DNA from: Rhodospirillaceae bacterium
Lineage (GTDB): Bacteria > Pseudomonadota > Alphaproteobacteria > Bin65
Direction: 5' to 3'
Length of the DNA stretch: 44,299 nucleotides
Assembly (NCBI GenBank): GCA_026709535.1
Contig: JAPOST010000001.1
Coordinates: 1 to 44,299, forward strand
Shown here in pieces: positions 34,993-36,663 of the stretch. Each line of letters opens with the position of its first letter. Position 1 is the first letter of the stretch. The notes under the pieces were generated by a model. That model was not told the origin of the DNA and made no database searches. It saw only the letters and a program-made list of their open reading frames with translations. Both the position numbers and the translations under genes were made by a program.

Positions 34993-35247
34993 ATGTCCTC
35001 AGAAAAACAAAACCTGCAGGACGTATTCCTTAACAATATCCGCAAGAACAAGACACCGGTTACGGTCTTCCTGGTTAATGGCGTCAAGCTTCAGGGTATT
35101 GTGACCTGGTTTGATAATTTCTGTGTCCTGCTGCGCCGCGATCACCATTCTCAACTGGTTTACAAACACGCGATTTCGACGATTATGCCTGCGCAACCGG
35201 TGCAGTTGTTTGATCCGGAAGCGGCAGGAAGCGCCGAAAACGCCTGA
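34993..35247 (+). CDS. hfq: RNA-binding chaperone Hfq
   Basis: The 84-residue Sm-like protein forms hexamers and helps small RNAs pair with mRNAs. The Sm1 motif covers [20 protein letters not shown] to [19 protein letters not shown], and the Sm2 motif includes [10 protein letters not shown] with the KH pair. The short C-terminal tail (ending GSAENA) is typical of alphaproteobacteria. AAGGA lies about 8 bases before the ATG. Its TGA stop is in the same frame as the open frame of hflX, which begins directly after it. Confidence 0.98.
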
Positions 35248-35277
35248 ACCCGGGCCGGCGAGATTCCTACCGATACC

Positions 35278-36663
35278 CTGAACCTGGCTTCAGAACCGAT
35301 CGCTGACCATGCGGGCAATTGCACGCGCTGCCTCGTCATTCATCCTTACCCGAAGGGTGACACCCGGGCTGAAGATCGCTGCAGGAATCGTCTTGATGAA
35401 GCAGTCGGCCTCGCACAGGCCATAGCGCTTGACATCGCGGATGCGCGACTGGCCCCGTGCAGACGCATTGCGCCGGCAACCTGGATTGGCAAAGGGGCGG
35501 TTGAGAGAATCGCCCATGAGGTTGCCGAAGCGCATCTGGAATTGGTTGTCATGGATTGTACACTCAGTCCCGGACAACAACGCAACCTGGAGCGCCGCTG
35601 GCAATGCAAGGTGATTGATCGCACAGCCCTTATCCTGGAAATTTTTGGTGCACGCGCCCAGACCAGTGAAGGCCGACTGCAAGTTGAGTTTGCTCACTTG
35701 ATTTGGCAACGCAGTCGGCTAGTACGAAGTTGGACTCATTTGGAGCGTCAGCGCGGCGGCTTTGGTTTCACAGGCGGTCCTGGCGAGGCGCAAATTGAAC
35801 TCGATCGACGCCTGATCGACGAACGTATTGCCAAGCTCAAGCGCCAATTGGAAAAGGTGCGACAGCGCAGGGTGCTGCAACGCAAGGCGCGAGAGAAAAC
35901 GCCTTATCCCGTCGCGGTGCTGGTTGGGTACACCAACGCCGGAAAATCCTCCCTGTTCAATCGTCTTGCATCTGCAACGGTCCGAGCAGAAGACATGCTC
36001 TTCGCGACATTGGATCCGACAATGCGCAAGATATCCCTGCCGCGCGGCCGTGAAATGATCCTGTCCGATACCGTGGGCTTCATATCGGACCTGCCGACTG
36101 AACTCGTCGCGGCCTTCCGGGCCACACTCGAGGAAGTCACTCGCGCTGACGTGGTCCTGCACGTTCGTGATGTCGCTCGCTCAGATTCCAAAAGCCAGGC
36201 GGAGAGTGTCCAGGATATACTGTCAGATCTCTTGTCGAATGAAGACCTGGAAGAACGGGTGATCGAAATCTGGAACAAGACAGACCTTCTGGATCGGGCA
36301 GACAGGGAACGGCTGAATAATCAGGCAGTACGGTCTGATGCGCGGGTCGTTCCGGTTTCTGCGATGACAGGGGAGGGCATCAAGGCTCTGGTCGCCAAGG
36401 TGGAGAGCTTGGTCGGCAAGGATCGGAAACGCTTGTCAGTCACCATTGCCTACGATCAGGGCGCGGCCCTCAATTGGCTGTATGAGCGGGGAGCGATAGT
36501 CGCGCGGCACGATGCGGCGGAGAGTATTGAACTGATTGTCGAGGTTGAGCAGCGTGATGTGCAAACGCTTCGAAGACGATTTGATCTCGAAATTGCTCCC
36601 AGTATCGCATCAACCATGAATGTGCCTAATTTCGACAACAGGAATGGAAATTGGGCGTCATGA
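35278..36663 (+). CDS. hflX: ribosome-associated GTPase HflX (non-standard start)
   Basis: The full product is about 461 residues. HflX is a GTPase that splits stalled ribosomes. The G domain has G1 GYTNAGKSSLFN, G2/G3 region MILSDTVGFISDLP and G4 WNKTDLL. The N-terminal HflX domain is clearly encoded upstream of the first ATG (35542), with VIHPYPKGDTRAEDR, NRLDEAVGLAQAI, WIGKGAVERIA and then LSPGQQRNLERRWQ. No ATG, GTG or TTG lies in frame between the hfq stop (35247) and that domain. Candidates are CTG 35278 or 35284 or ATT 35263. The start given here is therefore provisional. It ends 3 bases from the convergent livF. Confidence 0.85.
   Translation: MNLASEPIADHAGNCTRCLVIHPYPKGDTRAEDRCRNRLDEAVGLAQAIALDIADARLAPCRRIAPATWIGKGAVERIAHEVAEAHLELVVMDCTLSPGQQRNLERRWQCKVIDRTALILEIFGARAQTSEGRLQVEFAHLIWQRSRLVRSWTHLERQRGGFGFTGGPGEAQIELDRRLIDERIAKLKRQLEKVRQRRVLQRKAREKTPYPVAVLVGYTNAGKSSLFNRLASATVRAEDMLFATLDPTMRKISLPRGREMILSDTVGFISDLPTELVAAFRATLEEVTRADVVLHVRDVARSDSKSQAESVQDILSDLLSNEDLEERVIEIWNKTDLLDRADRERLNNQAVRSDARVVPVSAMTGEGIKALVAKVESLVGKDRKRLSVTIAYDQGAALNWLYERGAIVARHDAAESIELIVEVEQRDVQTLRRRFDLEIAPSIASTMNVPNFDNRNGNWAS

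Follow-up and report, generated by a model that had tools for sequence, protein, structure and literature searches.

Organization of the hfq-hflX locus

The window is a 44,299-nucleotide stretch of DNA from a Rhodospirillaceae bacterium (GenBank assembly GCA_026709535.1, contig JAPOST010000001.1, positions 1 to 44,299, forward strand). It carries hfq and, close behind it on the same strand, hflX. The features of the junction and of hflX are as follows:

34993-35247, + strand: hfq, with an ATG start and a TGA stop, in frame with hflX (TIGR02383, PF17209)
35242-35255, + strand: GCCTG..CGGGC complementarity across the hfq stop, with paired bases identical in seven of seven genomes of the genus
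35263-35265, + strand: ATT, the codon proposed as non-canonical hflX start, lying 18 nt past the T of the hfq TGA (the six sister genomes have ATC here)
35263-36663, + strand: hflX as proposed, 466 aa (TIGR03156, 423.5 bits; Pfam domains)
35263-35328, + strand: N-terminal linker, weakly conserved and varying in length across the genus, with no in-frame ATG, GTG or TTG (genus comparison)
35332-35646, + strand: conserved HflX sequence from LVIHP, and N-terminal domain (PF13167 match at 35386-35646)
35542-35544, + strand: TTG, first in-frame ordinary start codon, inside the N-terminal domain and judged not to be the start (PF13167 match)

From the hfq stop codon (TGA, 35245-35247) the frame of hflX, which in the window is also that of hfq, is open for 98 codons (35248-35541) that include not one in-frame ATG, GTG or TTG; the TTG at 35542 is the first ordinary start codon. 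This bears out the original prediction that hflX lacks an ordinary start and is open up to the hfq TGA. The other two forward frames of the same stretch contain 11 and 2 such codons. The probability of finding none in 98 codons is 1.5e-3 at the frequency of 6.4% observed in the rest of hflX, and 414 of 20000 base shuffles of the stretch were free of them. A start-free linker of 17-42 codons was rejected as evidence on its own, the shuffle probability being 0.42-0.80 per genome. The weight of the missing start comes from an intact, conserved gene that is without a canonical start in all seven genomes of the genus.

The HflX protein of the window scores 423.5 bits against TIGR03156, above the curated cut-off of 216.75, and its N-terminal, middle, GTPase and C-terminal domains (PF13167, PF16360, PF01926 and PF19275) all exceed their gathering scores. 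The solved relatives 5ady and 7yla match it from residue 30-31. A pseudogene was ruled out, HflX being intact and above the family cut-off. Counted from 35248, the PF13167 match comprises residues 47-133, so that the N-terminal domain does lie in frame upstream of the first ordinary start, as had been claimed, and the conserved sequence LVIHP starts at 35332. A start at 35542 (residue 99) would therefore cost residues 47-98 of the domain match. It is very improbable that HflX begins at this TTG without most of its N-terminal domain: the codon is the first ordinary one in frame, but the residues it would drop are conserved in ten aligned relatives, and the N-terminal domain is described as displacing helix H69 in ribosome splitting (PMC9067457).

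Conservation of the junction in the genus and family

The sample comprised 11 genomes of the order to which the window belongs, seven of them, the window's own included, from its genus. The hfq stop is GCC TGA and in frame with hflX in all seven, no further in-frame stop lies between the two genes, and no ATG, GTG or TTG is found from the hfq stop to the domain, 17-42 codons on. A base error hiding an ordinary start, which had been raised as a possibility, is refuted since seven of seven genomes show the same missing start. A start after the hfq stop in another frame, combined with a frameshift, was also rejected; the genus loci L007 and L008 offer no ATG, GTG or TTG in any forward frame for 140 nt past that stop. 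The recommended comparison of the hfq-hflX junction in close relatives did reveal a conserved candidate. At codon 6 past the hfq stop, the six sister genomes have ATC and the window has ATT, and this is the only linker position with an AUH (AUU, AUC or AUA) or CTG codon common to all seven.

The linker of the window also contains CTG at 35278 and 35284, and CTG is a near-cognate start codon. A start at one of these, or at near-cognate codons specific to each species, is unlikely. CTG is missing from the linker in four of the seven genus genomes, and where six of them have a CTG at the beginning of LVVHP the window has CTC. Three other loci from elsewhere in the class (L144, L147 and L194) lend this alternative some support, as they lack a canonical candidate and have a CTG at the hfq stop or only a few bases away from it. 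Three members of other genera of the window's family in which hflX is present (L009, L010 and L011) have a canonical TTG or GTG and not the conserved AUH.

Across the six sister genomes, pN was 0.237 and pS 0.109 for codons 1-5 past the hfq stop (few changes), and pN 0.052 and pS 0.171 for codons 7-11 (small numbers). This shift runs in the direction that would be expected if translation begins at codon 6. When the window's genome is included, codons 7-11 give pN 0.168 and pS 0.182 and the signal of constraint after the codon is gone, because the linker in the window has diverged. Readthrough of the hfq TGA to yield an Hfq-HflX fusion that supplies HflX is compatible with the shared frame and the lack of another stop between the genes in seven of seven genomes, but the codons from the TGA to the ATC are unconstrained in the six sister genomes on the few changes just given. 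Together with the frames found in other families (see below), this makes the fusion quite improbable.

Start codons of hflX in Rhizobiaceae, Hoeflea and Hyphomicrobium

Among 80 named loci, scanned by counting every in-frame canonical codon including those within hfq, three were without a canonical start ahead of the domain: L032 (a record of the window's genus), L048 (Hoeflea olei) and L108 (Martelella lutilitoris). ATT, ATC or ATA soon after the hfq stop was found in these three, and Sinorhizobium, Ensifer, Rhizobium sp. C4 and Hyphomicrobium showed it as well. All 16 loci of the genus Hoeflea carry an AUH (ATC or ATA) at +15 or +16, counting from the T of the hfq stop codon; in 11 of the 16, the region between a point 10 nt ahead of that stop codon and the domain contains no canonical start. 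The AUH is likewise present in each of ten named Rhizobiaceae loci. In a set of 29 other Rhizobiaceae loci, which omits L255 as a repeat of L048, the AUH is located at +12 to +21 in 21 loci, one of which (L243) has ATG as the very next codon. The remaining eight comprise five with hflX apart from hfq, two with GTG, and L247 with an ATA further on. Hyphomicrobium has ATA or ATC at +17 to +20 in all six loci examined. Two of the ten named loci, S. saheli L059 and S. meliloti L106 (strain 4H41), have a GTG in frame three codons upstream of the conserved ATT; this GTG may be the hflX start there, a canonical start perhaps having been gained. A further 40 Rhizobiaceae regions were mostly of the TTG type, with the hfq stop followed immediately by TTG in 20, and three others (L268, L269 and L283) resemble AUH starts.

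In all three groups the AUH sits in the hflX frame whether or not hfq shares it. The frame of hfq differs from that of hflX in 15 of 16 Hoeflea loci, in 12 of the 21 other Rhizobiaceae AUH loci (hfq frame offset 0, 1 and 2 in 9, 7 and 5, respectively) and in five of the six Hyphomicrobium loci. Because the AUH keeps to the hflX frame regardless of the hfq frame, simple readthrough is excluded as a general explanation, and the fusion suggested in the original prediction is not supported, either on this ground or by the unconstrained codons between TGA and ATC.

Many rhizobia carry a downstream ATG after the AUH, in the sequence 'RDDMRA'. This ATG could be the true start, with the preceding stretch a regulatory leader and the AUH a mere isoleucine codon, and 26 of the 45 loci with ATG as sole canonical start in the census described below are of this type. 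In these 26 loci an AUH lies closer to the hfq stop, and the ATG is probably not the start. The stretch before the ATG is constrained as protein in the hflX frame (see the next section); a canonical start before the domain is absent from L048, L108, L235 and L251, as it is from the 11 Hoeflea loci mentioned above and from most of those of Hyphomicrobium. The ATG is accordingly an improbable start in these rhizobia.

Coding constraint and codon choice at the AUH

In Hoeflea, pN/pS was 1.78 (0.42-infinity) upstream of the AUH and 0.30 (0.12-0.63) downstream of it; in Rhizobium/Sinorhizobium the corresponding values were 0.94 (0.73-1.65) and 0.45 (0.28-0.65), all ranges being from bootstraps over codons. 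When the same stretch is read in the other two frames, pN exceeds pS. The coding constraint of hflX in Rhizobiaceae starts at the AUH codon. The Rhizobium/Sinorhizobium set consists of 19 hand-picked loci with an AUH that were apparently alignable without gaps (six named and 13 of 30 other Rhizobiaceae). The Hoeflea set leaves out L224, which has a different linker, and includes L093, a repeat of L216; merging of identical sequences left 15 distinct sequences in the codon tally and 14 (four with ATA) in the bootstrap, which covers a shorter stretch.

The codon at the site is ATA in 5 of 15 distinct Hoeflea sequences vs 4 of 395 isoleucine codons in the gene bodies, and ATT in 16 of 18 Rhizobium/Sinorhizobium sequences vs 94 of 557, tallies that carry no p-value because related sequences are not independent. 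By these counts the third base of the AUH site departs from isoleucine codon usage. Both the pairwise counts and the codon tallies ignore descent. Of the two non-canonical starts first suggested, a CTG and an ATT, the ATT at 35263 is favored, as it occupies the only AUH/CTG position shared by seven of seven genus genomes and corresponds to the limit of constraint in Rhizobiaceae; the CTG is less likely, being unconserved in the genus.

Start-codon census in alphaproteobacteria

The census covered 273 hflX loci; 23 were skipped because hfq, the domain motif or the GTPase motif was not matched by pattern, and L210, L255, L032 and L307 were left out as repeats. The count of starts began 10 nt ahead of the hfq stop, so that starts within hfq fall among the 46 loci scored as having none; these include L174, L207 and the Thalassospira loci L076, L081, L089 and L092, which have an in-frame canonical codon further up. 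The domain pattern misplaced at least L139 and perhaps others. At +15 to +20, the in-frame start-like codons of the 273 loci are AUH in 66, GTG in 6, TTG in 5, ATG in 4 and CTG in 1. Exactly one canonical candidate was found in 172 loci (104 TTG, 23 GTG and 45 ATG), and TTG is the usual candidate for the hflX start after hfq in this class (104 of 172).

Another 80 regions drawn from the class included six without a canonical hflX start. Two of these have an AUH near the hfq stop (ATC in L208 and ATA in L173) and three have CTG, which overlaps the stop as CTGA in L144 (G309) and L194 (G108) and lies just after it in L147 (G301), as if the common TTGA overlap had turned into CTGA. In the sixth, L185 (G291), the open hflX frame past the hfq stop contains neither an AUH nor a CTG, and no ATG, GTG or TTG precedes the domain.

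Initiation signals and comparison with infC

The gene for initiation factor IF3, infC, uses an AUU, AUC or AUA start and is autoregulated by IF3. As a positive control it was located in 23 genomes. In all seven genomes of the genus (L265, L258, L260-L262, L264 and L266) infC starts with ATA after an AAAGGA Shine-Dalgarno sequence. No canonical in-frame codon precedes the ATA in six of them; the window's genome has three such codons 14-20 codons above it, before the Shine-Dalgarno sequence. The infC start, read from the Shine-Dalgarno sequence and with no nearer upstream canonical start, is ATT in eight of eight Rhizobiaceae genomes and, by the same criteria, ATC in three of three Hyphomicrobium genomes, an assignment that is less certain because of an in-frame ATG four codons further on. 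AUH starts thus seem to be in use in most of these bacteria. In genome G137, hflX (L208) likely starts at ATC but infC has ATG (L317), which suggests that a common start type is not obligatory for the two genes.

Four infC start sites were scored for Shine-Dalgarno pairing, with duplex energies of -5.9 to -9.2. For hflX, the mean in the genus was -3.17 vs -3.18 for shuffled sequences (no signal), and the values were -3.98 vs -3.60 in Hoeflea and -4.85 vs -4.32 in Rhizobium/Sinorhizobium. By duplex energy, no strong Shine-Dalgarno sequence was found before the hflX AUH in any of these three sets. Such a sequence is a property of the known IF3-type examples and not a defining criterion.

The GCCTG..CGGGC complementarity spans the hfq stop in seven of seven genus genomes and lies 7 nt before the proposed start; it has no covariation because the paired bases are identical throughout. 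The junction RNA of the window folds better than its shuffles (z -2.3), with the AUU within a helix. The six sister genomes yield z values between -2.2 and +0.7 and dissimilar MFE folds, so a conserved structure of the junction RNA is not claimed.

Proposed initiation of hflX and relation to known systems

The best explanation of these data is that hflX is translated from a non-canonical AUH start, AUU at 35263 in the window and AUC in its sisters, 18 nt past the T of the hfq stop; we assign this reading a probability of about 0.75 on the sequence comparisons above. Ribosomes finishing hfq would re-initiate at the hflX AUH, on which the initiator tRNA would be placed. Re-initiation is proposed because the hflX site has no strong Shine-Dalgarno sequence, and the short and near-constant distance to the hfq stop suggests that ribosomes terminating on hfq supply initiation of hflX. 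The earlier suggestion of re-initiation at the hfq stop would thus fit as the probable supply of ribosomes, given the spacing of 15-20 nt and the lack of a strong Shine-Dalgarno sequence. IF3 discriminates against AUH start codons. By rejecting them it would hold HflX output low relative to Hfq, and output would rise when IF3 is scarce relative to ribosomes. We infer AUH initiation, coupling to hfq and IF3 control, the last of these by analogy only.

The hflX gene would resemble infC in having an AUH start without a usable canonical start nearby and in encoding a factor of ribosome subunits. It differs in that infC has a strong Shine-Dalgarno sequence, whereas hflX, which follows hfq at 15-20 nt, is without one in the genus (-3.2). 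To our knowledge, few bacterial genes with AUH starts have been demonstrated by experiment. The sigR gene of Streptomyces has a GTC start repressed by IF3 (PMC5472188). It is like hflX in being a conserved non-canonical start outside infC, and its start was missed by annotation; it differs in its codons (GTC/GTT, not AUH), in its extensive ribosome-binding site, and in that IF3 control was tested for sigR (PMC5472188) and is proposed by analogy for hflX. In Staphylococcus aureus, start mapping identified conserved AUH starts in cvfC1 (AUU) and ccpN (AUA), whose reporters gave approximately 10% of AUG output in poor medium (PMC13009471). The conserved AUH starts are shared with hflX; the extended Shine-Dalgarno sequences are not, and these are other genes in another phylum (PMC13009471). 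The TTG-start hfq-hflX pairs of other alphaproteobacteria likewise have hflX close behind hfq with a weak start codon, but TTG is canonical and often adjoins (TGA TTG) or overlaps (TTGA) the hfq stop. Genes with conserved non-canonical starts are already known (infC, sigR, cvfC1 and ccpN), and hflX is a proposed addition, which would be peculiar among them in having no strong Shine-Dalgarno sequence and in its placement after hfq.

In S. meliloti, hfq and hflX were described as a likely two-gene operon (PMC2848018). A word search of the main text of a Ribo-seq study of this species did not return hflX, noncanonical or non-canonical (PMC10117765), and no paper on a non-AUG start of hflX was found among the matches listed in open-access PubMed Central.

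Implications

Gene finders assume ATG, GTG or TTG starts, and the N-termini of hflX in rhizobia and their relatives may therefore be misannotated, for example at the 'RDDMRA' ATG. More tentatively, and less probably than not, hflX in several alphaproteobacterial lineages may have an AUH start that is gated by IF3 and fed by hfq, and may form with infC a two-gene start-codon regulon that balances ribosome splitting and anti-association. IF3 keeps split ribosomal subunits apart. If it also controls hflX, a stress ribosome-splitting factor would be tied to the factor that keeps the subunits apart.
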